Under the pieces are notes generated by a model, which did no database searches, was not told the origin of the DNA, and saw only the letters and a list, made by a program, of their open reading frames with translations. This document shows positions 11,749 through 59,378 of a stretch of DNA of 60,717 nt, piece by piece. Every line of letters starts with the position of its first letter. Position 1 is the stretch's first letter. The translations under genes were made by a program, and so were the position numbers. The stretch is taken from positions 1 to 60,717 of the forward strand of contig ONWV01000001.1 of assembly GCA_900321635.1 (NCBI GenBank), given 5' to 3'. The DNA comes from an uncultured Spirochaetaceae bacterium. GTDB taxonomy: Bacteria; Spirochaetota; Spirochaetia; Sphaerochaetales; Sphaerochaetaceae.

Positions 11749-12334
11749 AATTAGGCGCATCGCTTTACTCGTTATTGTTACTCTAATGTTCTGTCTCTGT
11801 GCCTGCCGTACAACGACGGGCACGGATCACGATCAGATTGTAAAGGCATCAATTAACCTTGCTGACTCCTATGTCAGCCTTTCCAGGTATGAGGACGCCC
11901 TTTCCGTCTACGACAGGGCCATTGAGCAGGCCGATGACTACAGACTCTATTACAACAAGGCCATAATCCTCTCGGATCTTGGAAGAAACCTCGAGGCTGC
12001 CAGGCTCTGCTCTGAAAGCTTCGATCGTTTTTCCGACATCCTTTCCTTCAAGATTGCCGAGGCCAAGTACCTGAGACTTGCAGGTGACAACTCAGGCTCA
12101 TATTCAGCCTACCTCAAGGCCCTTGAGCTTAACCCCTACGACAGGGACACTAGAATCAGACTCATAGACAACCTTATCGAGGACGGACAGAACCAGATGG
12201 CCTATGATCAGGCGCTTTTGATGTGGAACCAAGGTTACAGAGACGAGAAAGGAATCGAGTATCTTTATACTTTGCAACCAAATAACTGGGAGATTCTATA
12301 CTTTCAGATTACAGGCAAAACTAAAGAGCGATAA
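11726..12334 (+). CDS. TPR-repeat lipoprotein
   Basis: A 202-residue exported lipoprotein. After a short basic start there is a hydrophobic stretch and CLCAC, with the second or third Cys as the lipid-attachment site. The rest is tetratricopeptide-like: INLADSYVSLSRYEDALSVYDRAIEQ, LYYNKAIILSDLGRNLEAARLC, and YSAYLKALELNPYDRDTRIRL, giving about four helix pairs. Likely a periplasm-facing scaffold; no partner can be named. The start is a TTG lying 23 bases inside the upstream gene. Its 3' end overlaps the convergent chromate transporter gene by 14 bases. Confidence 0.72.
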   Translation: MKRRCSAEIRRIALLVIVTLMFCLCACRTTTGTDHDQIVKASINLADSYVSLSRYEDALSVYDRAIEQADDYRLYYNKAIILSDLGRNLEAARLCSESFDRFSDILSFKIAEAKYLRLAGDNSGSYSAYLKALELNPYDRDTRIRLIDNLIEDGQNQMAYDQALLMWNQGYRDEKGIEYLYTLQPNNWEILYFQITGKTKER

Positions 12335-53218: not shown

Positions 53219-53989
53219 TCAGTTGGTCTTCATGAATCTCTTATGTGTGGTTCCGTCGTAATCCGACCAGACCTCTCCGTCGTCACTGACCTGTATTTTT
53301 ATGCCGTTTCCAAGCTCAAGTGCACCGTCATTCGTGTATGTGGCTCCGTGTCCTATTCCTGATGTCGGATGTTCATCTCCATAAGGACCGCCTTCCGCAT
53401 ACACAGAACCGCCTTCAATTTGGACAACTCCCCCGTTTGCTTCGAGTCCTCCGCCGATTCCGGCTCCATACTCTCCGCCTTTCGCGTAGACAGTACCGCC
53501 TGTGATTTTGACAACTCCGCCTTTTCCTTGGTAACCACCGCCTATTCCTGCTCCGCAGTTGCTATGACCTGAGCAATTAGCATAGGCTTTGACTGTTCCT
53601 TCTGTAATGATAATTTCACCGCAGGATTTTCCGGATGTTCCTCCGATTGCAGAGTCGTTTTCGCCGCTGCCGTTTTGGGCGTTAAGCGTACCTTTCCCTT
53701 TGATTGTAAGTCTGCTTCCGTTGTTGACGGTAATTCCTTCCATCGCGTACAGTTTTCTCCCATCGTTGAGAATCAGAGTCACATTGCCTTCTACGGTAAT
53801 ACGTTTTCCCGGTCTGTCGAAAAACACATCCCTTTTCAAAACATATGTTTCACCGTCGTTCCACGTGGTCATCGAACTGGTAAGAACAATGGATCCGTCA
53901 GCCAGAAGCTCGGGTTCTTTAGGTTCATTACAGGAAACAGACACTGCAAGGACAAGGATTGCAGCAAGAAGAATAAAAGCCTTTTTCAT
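53219..53989 (-). CDS. Glycine-rich surface lipoprotein
   Basis: 256 residues. Signal peptide with lipobox ending VSVSC (Cys about 20). Residues about 70-100 read like a parallel beta-helix start (VEGNVTLILNDGRKLYAMEGITVNNGSRLTIKGKGTL), then three or four glycine-rich repeats of about 30 residues (GEIIITEGTVKAYANCSG, GVVKITGGTVYAKGGEYGAGIGGG, GVVQIEGGSVYAEGGPYG). C-terminus GTTHKRFMKTN. Similar to the frameshifted gene at 55898-57408 and to the cut gene at the right edge (ending HRYMKTN). Probably surface-exposed; adhesion or carbohydrate binding is only a guess. GAGGGG before the ATG. Confidence 0.72.
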   Translation of the reverse strand: MKKAFILLAAILVLAVSVSCNEPKEPELLADGSIVLTSSMTTWNDGETYVLKRDVFFDRPGKRITVEGNVTLILNDGRKLYAMEGITVNNGSRLTIKGKGTLNAQNGSGENDSAIGGTSGKSCGEIIITEGTVKAYANCSGHSNCGAGIGGGYQGKGGVVKITGGTVYAKGGEYGAGIGGGLEANGGVVQIEGGSVYAEGGPYGDEHPTSGIGHGATYTNDGALELGNGIKIQVSDDGEVWSDYDGTTHKRFMKTN

Positions 53990-54558: not shown

Positions 54559-55716
54559 TCATTGCCAATCCCGCCACCCAATATATTTTGTGCCGTTGAT
54601 TGTCATCGTAAGGTCTCCAAGGTAATAAACCGCACTGCTTGCAGAGGAATCAGCCCTAAGATCAAGATATCGCCTTGAACTTGAAGAATACTTTGATTCA
54701 GGTGTACTTGAGCTTTTTATCTCTATTGCAATCGGTTTTTCCCAATCTGCAATTACATCGACTTCCAGTCCGTTCTTGTCTCGGAAGAACGAAAGGTTCG
54801 GACGTCTACCTTTGTTCAGTCTGGATTTCATCAGTTCGGAAATCGCGAATGTCTCCACTACAGCACCTTTGTACTGGCTTAGAAGAAGAGCTTCCTTTGT
54901 CTCCAGCCTAAGAAGATGACAAAGAAGCCCTGAATCGTTGAAGTAGAGTTTCGGTGTTCTGACAAGCTTCCTTCCAAGATTCTTCACATCCGGTTCAAGC
55001 AGATTGATTATGAAGGAATTCTCAAGGATGGAAAGCCAGGTTTTAATGGTTGGAGCAGAAACACCTACATCCCTGGCAATATGTTCCATTGAGAGCAACT
55101 GTCCGCTGTAGACTGCACAGATTTGTATGAACTTCTTGAAAGTCGAAAGATTTCCCGGGTTAATCTGGCCGGAGACATCCTGTTCAAGATAGGTCTCCAG
55201 ATAGTTTTCATACCAGTCATATGTCACAAAGTGCCTGGAATCGTCATGCAAGGGGGGAAATTGGCCTTTGTGTATGAGATCATATGGATTACCCGGAAGG
55301 TTTCCCACCTGCTTCAACTCTGAAATGGAGAATGGAAGTAACCTGACAAAGGCAGCTCGTCCTGCAAGACTGTCAGACATGTTCTTCTTAAGCCTGAATT
55401 GACTTGAACCTGTAAGAATGAACTTGCCAGGGACACCAACGTTTCTGTCGACATCAAGCTTGATTGCATCAAATAGGAATGGGACCTTCTGTGCCTCATC
55501 TATAATTGCACCGTTAGGGAAAGCCATAACGAAATCTGTAGGATTGGATTCTGCCAGATTACGTATATTGGCATCATCGAATGAGATGTATTGTTTTTCA
55601 GGAAATGTGGATTGAGAGAGTGTGGACTTGCCACTCTGTCTTGGTCCCGTGATACATACGACAGGAAACTGGGATGACAATCTGAGAAGTGTTTCTTTTG
55701 CTGACCTTGGTATCAT
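54559..55716 (-). CDS. AAA_14/DUF4143 ATPase
   Basis: About 385 residues. N-terminal P-loop VVCITGPRQSGKSTL, ISFDDANIRNLAESN and IIDEAQKVPFLFDAIKL (Walker B); a helix-turn-helix-like part (SMEHIARDVGVSAPTIKTWLSILEN); then DUF4143 with a PD-(D/E)xK-like segment NGLEVDVIADWEKPIAIEIKSS. Members are common, mobile between anaerobes and of unknown function. The ATG at 55716 is inside the first of three direct repeats and seven bases after a -10 box, with no Shine-Dalgarno. Confidence 0.88.
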   Translation of the reverse strand: MIPRSAKETLLRLSSQFPVVCITGPRQSGKSTLSQSTFPEKQYISFDDANIRNLAESNPTDFVMAFPNGAIIDEAQKVPFLFDAIKLDVDRNVGVPGKFILTGSSQFRLKKNMSDSLAGRAAFVRLLPFSISELKQVGNLPGNPYDLIHKGQFPPLHDDSRHFVTYDWYENYLETYLEQDVSGQINPGNLSTFKKFIQICAVYSGQLLSMEHIARDVGVSAPTIKTWLSILENSFIINLLEPDVKNLGRKLVRTPKLYFNDSGLLCHLLRLETKEALLLSQYKGAVVETFAISELMKSRLNKGRRPNLSFFRDKNGLEVDVIADWEKPIAIEIKSSSTPESKYSSSSRRYLDLRADSSASSAVYYLGDLTMTINGTKYIGWRDWQ

Positions 55717-55772
55717 AATCCAAAGTGTAATAGTAGGATAATCCAAAGTCAATAGCTAGCCAAATCCAAAGT
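55717..55772. repeat. Three direct repeats with exact 23-base period in the DUF4143 ATPase promoter
   Basis: AATCCAAAGT occurs at 55717-55726, 55740-55749 and 55763-55772, 23 bases apart each time. Copy 1 lies between the -10 and the ATG, copy 2 overlaps the -35, copy 3 lies upstream. Looks like a cooperative operator. Confidence 0.8.
55724..55752 (-). promoter_or_regulatory. Promoter of the DUF4143 ATPase gene, leaderless type
   Basis: Minus strand TTGACT (55752-55747), 17-base spacer, TACACT (55729-55724), seven bases, ATG at 55716. Confidence 0.55.
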
Positions 55773-55897: not shown

Positions 55898-57286
55898 TCA
55901 ATATGCAGACGGTGCAGCAGTTGTTACATTCATGTATTCGCCTGTGAAACCGGCCCATTCACCTGAATAGTTTGTTACATTATCTGTGGGATTCTGTGAG
56001 TTTCCATAATACAGATACCATCCAGAATTAATTGCAAGATCGGATTGTTGGAGTTCTCCAAATCCGATTGTCAGTTTTCCGCAACTATCACCACTATTTC
56101 CCATTCCAATTCCAATAGCAGATCCGCCACTTGCTGCAGTTACAGTTCCTCCATTGATGATAACATTACCACCGCTACCTCCGTTACCACCACCGATTCC
56201 GGCTCCAGCGAAACCACCTTTAGATGTGACAGTTCCACCAGTGATTGTAATAGTTCCACCATCTTTTCCTATATAACTACCACCGATTCCGGCTGCATTA
56301 TCTCCACCTTCGGCTGTAACAGTTCCATCGTTGATTGTAATATTTCCACCGGCACTGCCATTACCACCGCCTATGCCAGTTCCAAAAGGTCCACCTTTGG
56401 CTATAACAGTTCCACCGTTGATTGTAATAGTTCCACCGTCACATCCTTCACCACCACCGATTCCGGCTGCAGCATCGCCTCCGGTTGCAGTTACGGTTCC
56501 ACCGTTGATGGTCACGGTTCCACCATAGGCACCAAAATCACCACTACCGATTCCGGCTCCATCTTCCCCTCCGGTTGCATTTATGATTCCGCCATTGATG
56601 GTAATTTCTCCGCAAGCATCCTCTGAATCATCACCGCCGATTCCTGCCTGATACGTTAATCCCGTAGCATTCAGTTTTCCGGAACCTTCAATTGTGAGCG
56701 AATTACCCTCTTTGACTGTGATTCCACTTGAAGCTGTAAGGGTCATGCCCTCAGGAAGAATAAGTGTGACATCCCCCGTAACCACAACTCGGCCTGTGAT
56801 GGTTACATCCTTGGACAAAGAAAACACTTTGCCAATGCTCTGATCCCATCTCGTGTTGTCACCCATAGTAGCCAGGTCAACTATCGTCCACTGAGCATAC
56901 AGAATGACGTTACCGACGGCTTTGATATTAGCCTTATCGTCGTAATGAACTCCGCCGCCGGCTCTTTTTGTATCCCAACCCGTGAACAAATACCCATTCT
57001 TGGTATATTTGTTCGGTCTTAAAGCTGTTTCCTCATTTTCCTTGACCCACTGGAGATATTCCATACCCGGTGCGCCGTTGGGATCGAAGATAACCAGCTC
57101 TACATTATCATACCACTGGGCATACAAGGTTGTGTTTTCCTCAAAACGGACTGTGTCGGCATCATAATACCAATCTCCGCTTCCATCAGACGCTGTGTTC
57201 CAACCAGCAAAAAAATGGTTTTCTTTTTCAAAAACATTTTTTGAAAGCTCTACATCTTCGCCTTTATATGCCTTAAGATCGGCCAT
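55898..57286 (-). CDS. InlB-repeat and glycine-rich-repeat surface lipoprotein, frameshifted in its signal peptide
   Basis: The listed frame gives 462 residues. Two InlB/Listeria-Bacteroides repeats (about 18-58 and 93-133, each ending LYAQW) are followed by a beta-helix start (VTGDVTLILPEGMTLTASSGI) and six glycine-rich repeats of about 29 residues (226-403; TVTINGGTVTATGG then AGIGGG). The true start is the ATG at 57408 after AAGGAG: it encodes MKKALVLLLTAF and would continue LVSLFISC (lipobox) if one base were added near 57370. As it stands, that frame stops after 19 codons. Either a sequencing/assembly deletion or a real pseudogene. Paralogue of the 53219 gene. Confidence 0.75.
   Translation of the reverse strand: MADLKAYKGEDVELSKNVFEKENHFFAGWNTASDGSGDWYYDADTVRFEENTTLYAQWYDNVELVIFDPNGAPGMEYLQWVKENEETALRPNKYTKNGYLFTGWDTKRAGGGVHYDDKANIKAVGNVILYAQWTIVDLATMGDNTRWDQSIGKVFSLSKDVTITGRVVVTGDVTLILPEGMTLTASSGITVKEGNSLTIEGSGKLNATGLTYQAGIGGDDSEDACGEITINGGIINATGGEDGAGIGSGDFGAYGGTVTINGGTVTATGGDAAAGIGGGEGCDGGTITINGGTVIAKGGPFGTGIGGGNGSAGGNITINDGTVTAEGGDNAAGIGGSYIGKDGGTITITGGTVTSKGGFAGAGIGGGNGGSGGNVIINGGTVTAASGGSAIGIGMGNSGDSCGKLTIGFGELQQSDLAINSGWYLYYGNSQNPTDNVTNYSGEWAGFTGEYMNVTTAAPSAY
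56078..56611 (-). repeat. Six tandem about 87-base coding repeats
   Basis: Each unit encodes about 29 residues of pattern xITINGGTVTAxGGxxxAGIGGGxxxxGG. Units differ at many positions, so they are old duplications, though recombination could still change copy number. Confidence 0.75.
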
Positions 57287-57958: not shown

Positions 57959-59311
57959 TCAGATTAAATACCTGGACTGCTTCCCCATCTTCTGCTGTCT
58001 GAGTTTTCCGCTGTCGCAAAGAATCTTGAGACACAAAAAAGCCTTGGTGGAACCCACATTGAACTTATCCTGAACATCCTTGCGGGTTATGGTCCCCTGC
58101 TCTTTTGCAAGTCTCAGAATTGAATCCGCAAGTTCATCCCTAGGCACATTGTTCACAGCGTACTGAGGCCGTGGTTCGGAAATCAGATTTCCGGAGTAAT
58201 AATCATCAATTGTTTCATTTCGGTTGAACAGAGTAACTTTGAATGCTCCTCCTACAGCCTGGAATTTGGGACTACATGAGAATCCCTTATACGAATCCAG
58301 TATCTTTCTCACCCCGGTGCCAAATCCTTCCACAAGACCAAGTCGGAGGAAAACTGAAGCCAGATTTGGATTTCTCCAGTCAGACATACCTAGAAATACC
58401 GCATCCAGAGTCAGCCCACTTACAAGGCCTCCAAGAGTAAGGAATTCAATATGGTCGTTGTAAATGTTGATAATTGTGCTCCCTGACGGCAGGTAATCCC
58501 TGTGTATGATGCAGTTTAAGAGTGCTTCCCTTACTGCCACCTCCGGATAATCTCTCTGATCGGTACGCAGCAGGCCTGTGAAAGTTGCCTTTATCTCATT
58601 TCTTCCATCGATGTATTCATAAACCTCTTTCAATTGTTTGAGTACTGAACCGGAAAACTCTCTTCTGGCTCTGAAGATGGAACCGTCGTTACCCTGAAAT
58701 ACTGCAACCTTTATGGTATGCGGACATTGGTCAGACAAAAGAAGCGCCAGATTATTGAAAAGATTATCGTCTCCCAGCATCTTCAAGGTTCTCATCTGGG
58801 CCTGTCCGAAATTCATTGATCTGGATTTCATTTCATTTCTCAGAGAATTGAATGTGAGGTTCTGAATCTGGCTCCGACTCTCTTCGTATGATTTGCCTGA
58901 TGTCTCCATTATCATTTCTCTGATGCCCACTTCATTCAAAGGAAAACATGCGGAACCTCTTCTGACATAGACACCGCTTGGTCTTAGTCCCTCTTTCTTC
59001 AGATAATATGGTCGTTCGGTTCCTATGGAGACTGTAGCCTTAACAACGGTTTTACCTTCCATTTTAAGCGGTCTGATTTGAATGAAAGGCATAAGATCCG
59101 GGAGAATACTGTCATGAATAAGGTTGGTCAGCCGACCCATCACATCATCAGGATTATCAACACCTATTACTGAGCCGTCATATGCTATACCGAAATAAAG
59201 ATTACCTCCCTCTGTATTGGCAAATGCAATCAGTTCCTTTGCGGTGCTTGAAGGAAGTTCCCTATTGTCTCTGTCCAGCTCTTTGAACTCAACATTTACA
59301 CTTTCGATCAT
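57959..59311 (-). CDS. AlbA_2/Schlafen-like ATP-binding transcriptional regulator
   Basis: About 450 residues. N-terminal AlbA_2 (Schlafen AlbA) domain: VEFKELDRDNRELPSSTAKELIAFANTEGGNLYFGIAYDGSVIGV. A HATPase_c_4-like part (PEVAVREALLNCIIHRDYLPSGSTI, GLVEGFGTGVRKILDSY) and a C-terminal winged helix (GTITRKDVQDKFNVGSTKAFLCLKILCDSGKL) follow. Often annotated as RecG-like regulator; function unknown. AAGGAGGT precedes the ATG at 59311. The promoter carries repeats of GCGAAAG and a 9-base inverted repeat, suggesting self-control. Confidence 0.87.
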   Translation of the reverse strand: MIESVNVEFKELDRDNRELPSSTAKELIAFANTEGGNLYFGIAYDGSVIGVDNPDDVMGRLTNLIHDSILPDLMPFIQIRPLKMEGKTVVKATVSIGTERPYYLKKEGLRPSGVYVRRGSACFPLNEVGIREMIMETSGKSYEESRSQIQNLTFNSLRNEMKSRSMNFGQAQMRTLKMLGDDNLFNNLALLLSDQCPHTIKVAVFQGNDGSIFRARREFSGSVLKQLKEVYEYIDGRNEIKATFTGLLRTDQRDYPEVAVREALLNCIIHRDYLPSGSTIINIYNDHIEFLTLGGLVSGLTLDAVFLGMSDWRNPNLASVFLRLGLVEGFGTGVRKILDSYKGFSCSPKFQAVGGAFKVTLFNRNETIDDYYSGNLISEPRPQYAVNNVPRDELADSILRLAKEQGTITRKDVQDKFNVGSTKAFLCLKILCDSGKLRQQKMGKQSRYLI

Positions 59312-59321
59312 GATTACCTCC

Positions 59322-59378
59322 TTCTTTCGCATCGTTCGCTTTCATTCTAACGCGAAAGAAAGCGAAAGTAAAGCGAGG
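59322..59378. promoter_or_regulatory. Repeat-rich operator of the AlbA-type gene
   Basis: TTCTTTCGC (59322-59330) and GCGAAAGAA (59352-59360) form a perfect 9-base inverted repeat around the predicted transcription start. GCGAAAG recurs at 59362 (10 bases on) and GCGAGG at 59373, so sites lie on one helix face. Confidence 0.55.
59344..59372 (-). promoter_or_regulatory. Promoter of the AlbA-type gene
   Basis: Minus strand TTTACT (59372-59367), 17-base spacer, TAGAAT (59349-59344), within the repeat block. Confidence 0.45.

Follow-up and report, generated by a model that had tools for sequence, protein, structure and literature searches.

Three exact copies of the 10-base unit AATCCAAAGT are located at 55717-55726, 55740-55749 and 55763-55772 of the DNA stretch analysed here (60,717 nucleotides, hereafter the window), with spacings of 23 and 23 bp. 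The tandem repeats span the predicted promoter of the gene that follows them, which encodes a PDC-S01-type ATPase. The most likely explanation, which we hold with reasonable confidence, is that each ATPase of this family represses its own promoter by binding an iteron-like operator private to its gene. Self-binding and repression are inferred; there are no binding, footprint or expression data.

The gene lies on the minus strand, where the repeat unit reads ACTTTGGATT and the units are laid out as TACTTTGGATTTGGCTAGCTATTGACTTTGGATTATCCTACTATTACACTTTGGATTATG. The order on this strand is TTGACT (55752-55747), 17 bp, TACACT (55729-55724), TTTGGATT and the ATG (55716-55714). TTGACT and TACACT are predicted from the sequence to be the -35 and -10 hexamers. 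The copy at 55763-55772, an exact match, is located upstream of the -35 hexamer. The copy at 55740-55749 begins with ACT, which supplies the last three bases of the -35 hexamer; the copy at 55717-55726, which abuts the start codon, likewise begins with ACT and so supplies the last three bases of the -10 hexamer. The repeat period thus equals one hexamer plus the -35/-10 gap (23 = 6 + 17). The initial annotation had described three 10-base repeats at 23-base spacing, covering the -10/start, the -35 and the upstream region; the exact triple is confirmed, and its placement is borne out by the hexamers of the predicted promoter.

Among equally spaced 10-mer triples (11-100 bp) in the window, AATCCAAAGT is the only one. 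The chance expectation for such a triple is about 5e-6 per window, and none was found in 60 simulated windows. The two-copy 23-bp pattern of AATCCAAAGT has a single site in the host genome (1.83 Mb, about 81% complete). An origin by chance is at odds with this expectation. Duplication of a promoter could be considered, as two sigma-70 hexamers are embedded in two of the repeats, but TTTRGATT, the core of the repeat, does not correspond to a sigma-70 element and is kept beside the promoters of Bacteroidales homologues. Chance or promoter duplication is already refuted by the comparative data, and we give it practically no weight.

Transcription is predicted to start at the ATG or immediately beside it, which makes a leaderless message likely. 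Some homologues have their repeats near the start codon, and the repeats might then work in RNA, as a leader or a small RNA. In the window gene and in Bacteroidales, however, they are located at or upstream of the predicted transcription start and would not be transcribed; a role in RNA is very improbable.

The ATPase gene (54559-55716, minus strand) encodes 385 aa with AAA_14 and DUF4143 domains, and an alignment indicates that homologues use the same start ATG. The P-loop ATPase domain, with the Walker A motif GPRQSGKS, is encoded at 55315-55668 (Pfam AAA_14, E 1.6e-24). The protein matches the PADLOC PDC-S01 profiles with an E value of 2.9e-94; these profiles also match proteins of other repeat classes. 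PDC-S01 is a phage-defence candidate in PADLOC, and the anti-phage link of the present gene is inferred from this. NCBIfam gave no family for the protein, and a sequence search against solved structures gave no match. In the AlphaFold2 model, which is confident (mean pLDDT 93.3), an AAA core is accompanied by a winged helix-turn-helix and by a PD-(D/E)XK-like region. According to the model (mean pLDDT 93) and the alignment, the winged helix-turn-helix comprises residues 203-260 (54937-55110), with helices 210-217 and 221-233 and strands between 237 and 259. Helix 221-233 (APTIKTWLSILEN) is inferred to be the recognition helix. The HTH-like segment suspected in the initial annotation is thus a confidently modelled fold. 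In the nuclease-type region (54697-54870), E288, E294, D320 and E332-x-K334 are invariant across 28 aligned sequences, and the PD-(D/E)XK strands are present in the model as judged by eye; this part had no fold search of its own. The nearest solved folds, over 246 residues, are the archaeal ATPases PAB2304 (2qen, Z 15.2) and SSO1545 (2fna, Z 14.6), which share the ATPase and winged-helix region at 17-18% identity. To our knowledge, no role for upstream repeats is known for either.

Homologue loci at 56-70% identity are spread over many phyla, which is a sign of wide transfer, although the loci come from metagenome bins, in which individual assignments may be mistaken. Upstream of these close homologues, two to seven ACTTTRGATT-type units are present at 22-23 bp. 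The tandems are kept in Spirochaetes, Bacteroidales, Clostridia, Planctomycetaceae, Riflebacteria, Coriobacteriaceae and Cardiobacteriaceae; the strict form is found in 36 of 44 loci, and several of the others are truncated or slightly degenerate. The repeat unit is unchanged among close homologues while the promoter consensus varies by host. A TTGACT-N17-TAnACT promoter is present in 20/26 non-Bacteroidales homologues and in 0/15 from Bacteroidales, where TAnnTTTG abuts the last repeat unit in all 15. No flanking gene is common to the homologue loci, save in a few related Bacteroidales, and no operon partner common to the loci was found. Thus, the travelling companion of the operator is the ATPase gene itself. 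Among 247 genomes of the phylum, the tandem occurs in five: at the ATPase gene, two homologues, one relic and one site with spacing 24, which is probably due to chance. The relic (G261) retains the repeats and the last 25 residues of the ATPase gene. The tandem is therefore almost exclusive to the ATPase gene or its relic, and the repeats are not scattered elsewhere, the case that would have refuted the original proposal.

Several deletion derivatives were observed (L219 1500-1620; L069; L139), in which only the last 25 residues, or the C-terminal two thirds, of the ATPase gene remain, fused to the repeats. We also considered whether the repeats delimit a mobile unit and rejected this: 270 kb of homologue loci contain no other tandem, save one at a rearranged gene. 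Phage decoys were also rejected, with one possible exception. The strict tandem is present in seven viral contigs, mostly within apparent coding sequence as judged by eye, and none of these contigs encodes the ATPase. One viral contig without an ATPase gene (L229, about 12278-12310) has a ACTTTGGATTTTTCG doublet that is apparently intergenic.

The repeats are specific to the gene. In an archaeon of the Methanomassiliicoccales (G307, 1.5 Mb), 32 family members (DUF4143 genes) are present, and at least 18 of them have private repeat arrays; repeats were found in 18 of 20 sampled genes. Except for one paralogue pair, no cross-gene match rises well above background, a few marginal ones scoring 12-13 against a shuffled maximum of 12. 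When one of these repeat units was searched against the whole genome, it was present solely at its own gene. The window's own genome likewise has four different repeats, at the genes at C41, C52, C82 and C65. These results bear on the possibility that a separate host regulator, sensing infection or stress, uses the repeats as its operator and that the ATPase is merely the regulated gene. Overlap with the promoter alone leaves the binder unnamed, and to that extent such a regulator is admissible. But the motif stays with the gene across phyla that differ in their regulators, no neighbour gene is conserved, and the different motifs of PDC-S01 genes in one genome would require one host regulator per paralogue. 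We consider a separate regulator unlikely.

Similarity among operators tracks similarity among the proteins (Mantel r 0.65). Once overall similarity is removed, residues 211-235, the helix-turn-helix, give the strongest remaining association of any part of the protein in the full set (partial r about 0.27). This correlation is suggestive of the helix-turn-helix as the contact; it is modest, the helix-turn-helix does not lead in the close subset, where other windows rank equally, and ancestry was not corrected for. A one-residue specificity switch (Pro222 with GAA-type repeats, GAT versus GAA; Mann-Whitney 2.7e-5) was downgraded, as it represents a single change on the tree.

A degenerate PDC-S01 paralogue is present in seven genomes of the genus (L021 1465-2547, at C52 of the window's genome, and L012-L016 and L029). 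It has lost the Walker A, Walker B and PD-(D/E)XK residues, and its AAA_14 domain is no longer detected by Pfam. The helix GVSAPTxKTWLSxL (G(V/I)S(A/S)PTxxxW) and ACTTTA repeats at 23 bp are kept. These repeats are located between the paralogue and a divergent hexapeptide-transferase gene, which is followed by a gene of the phosphoglucomutase/phosphomannomutase family. The paralogue looks like a domesticated regulator. In it, selection appears to have retained the DNA-binding part together with its site, and as far as comparison of sequences can tell, this is the strongest natural evidence for self-binding. The earlier suggestion that the ATPase itself may be the regulator is accordingly supported by comparative data alone; direct binding has not been shown.

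The paralogue is also relevant to the possibility that the repeats are a nuclease recognition or protection site (a self/non-self mark, or a homing or insertion site) rather than mainly a transcription operator. The invariance of the PD-(D/E)XK residues in the aligned group, the wide transfer of the ATPase gene and the start of the deletion derivatives near the repeats would all suit such a site. It does not account for repeats that are in register with the promoter hexamers and are kept by paralogues without nuclease residues. The downstream flank of the gene has no repeat copies. A nuclease site is improbable.

Repeats before PDC-S01 genes are a feature of the wider family. The self-similarity of the upstream regions of 135 distinct members peaks at lags 22-24 and 32-34, and repeats at these lags are present in 72 of the 135, compared with 10/264 control upstreams (Fisher 1.7e-30). 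Family members hidden among the controls, and divergent neighbours, were removed from the control set; some undetected members may remain. In a fresh sample (archaea, Acidimicrobiales and others), for which lags and threshold were set beforehand, 39/60 upstreams have repeats, or 35/56 without four genes seen previously, and the in-gene control gave 0/60. The initial annotation proposed a scan before other DUF4143 genes and named an absence of comparable repeats there as its other refuting outcome. This outcome did not occur: homologues have gene-specific repeats at similar spacing. The class of repeat period depends on the protein type. Proteins of the GxKWxGK type have repeats in 24 of 25 cases, mostly at lag 23; the GxRQxGKT-W/Y/E types have them at lags 32-34 in 17 of 24; the clade of the window's ATPase gene shows lags 22-23. 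The two period classes, about 22.5 and 32.5 bp, are one helical turn apart. Lag 31 is frequent among the Acidimicrobiales genes of the fresh sample, and a 31-bp period was observed before PDC-S01 genes at L292, L295, L296 and L299.

At the scored lags, roughly half of the family upstreams show no direct repeats; some of these have inverted repeats instead, and others have neither. The clade with a GxSHNT recognition helix has no direct repeats, and an inverted repeat of about 33-47 bp is often located at its promoter. A palindrome score of at least 10 was reached by 25 of 63 genes without direct repeats, compared with 11% of controls, which is weaker evidence. In this clade, an inverted repeat of about 33-47 bp overlies the promoter at L052, L058, L073, L074, L076, L083, L084, L085, L166 and others. 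SLFN_AlbA_2 regulators, drawn in many cases from the same genomes, were scored as a second control; 8/44 have repeats at the scored lags, several of them best at 11-12 bp (Fisher 1.4e-5 versus 35/56). Thus, repeats before regulator genes are not exclusive to the PDC-S01 family. Upstream repeats are present at the SLFN_AlbA_2 genes L332, L340, L347, L349, L350 and L364, and several of them have a phase of 11-12 bp or close to a multiple of it.

In the proposed mechanism of self-repression, the three repeats would be the self-addressed operator of the encoded ATPase, whose winged helix-turn-helix would contact them. The protein would probably be an oligomer on the repeats, each repeat being bound by a single subunit or a single helix-turn-helix; oligomerisation is inferred. 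With a 23-bp period, neighbouring sites would be separated by roughly two turns of the helix and would stay in register with the -35 and -10 hexamers; their occupancy would therefore block RNA polymerase. The defence gene would be held low until the ATPase is released or diverted, and release on infection is likewise an inference. A further proposal is possible but doubtful: PDC-S01 may comprise thousands of mutually orthogonal self-addressed immune ATPases, in which the private array is both operator and reference ligand and holds the AAA+/nuclease inactive as a counted oligomer. Loss of the complex, competition or remodelling in infection would then both derepress the gene and activate the protein.

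Iteron-binding plasmid Rep proteins and toxin-antitoxin autorepression offer familiar parallels, in which a protein binds its own promoter at direct repeats arranged in tandem and spaced by about two helical turns. PDC-S01 differs from these in having no replication origin or antitoxin partner, and in having two periods (about 22-24 and 31-34 bp). A closer likeness is RptR, which represses a type I restriction-modification defence island via three direct repeats in the promoter (PMC12255303). RptR is a small separate regulator with a TAGCTA core, whereas here the effector ATPase is the inferred repressor and the motif varies by gene. The TAGCTA palindrome that RptR-type repeats carry is absent from the repeats of the window's ATPase gene; TAGCTA occurs once, between the copies at 55763-55772 and 55740-55749. 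Direct-repeat autoregulation and a defence island repressed via three direct repeats are therefore already known.

PDC-S01 has been described as a fusion of an ATPase with a PD-(D/E)XK domain, an architecture shared by the window protein, and is ranked as the fourth most common prokaryotic defence system; operator repeats are not mentioned in the accessible part of that source (PMC12988326). In bovine rumen genomes, it is reported to be the individual defence locus that occurs most often (PMC13356809). No mechanism for PDC-S01 was found in the open-access papers searched, where DUF4143 appears in Thermus Argonaute expression work and the titles and abstracts on COG1373 were irrelevant. Private promoter-overlapping repeat arrays as a trait of the family are undescribed there, subscription papers and preprints being outside the scope. 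What appears to be new within this scope is a private array over the promoter of the effector gene as a trait of an abundant candidate defence family, in bacteria and archaea. Such a fixed-period, gene-specific cis-element names the likely ligand of each PDC-S01 protein. The repeats make binding testable with short oligonucleotides and aid the annotation of members and relics, and the family is a source of many repressor-operator pairs that are probably orthogonal, 18 of them in one archaeon.

In the neighbourhood of the ATPase gene, a gene with SLFN_AlbA_2 and HATPase_c_4 domains is located at 57959-59332. Glycine-rich repeat proteins of the GGTVTATGG type are encoded on either side of the ATPase gene, at 53219-53989 and 55898-57286; judged by eye, both are likely secreted.
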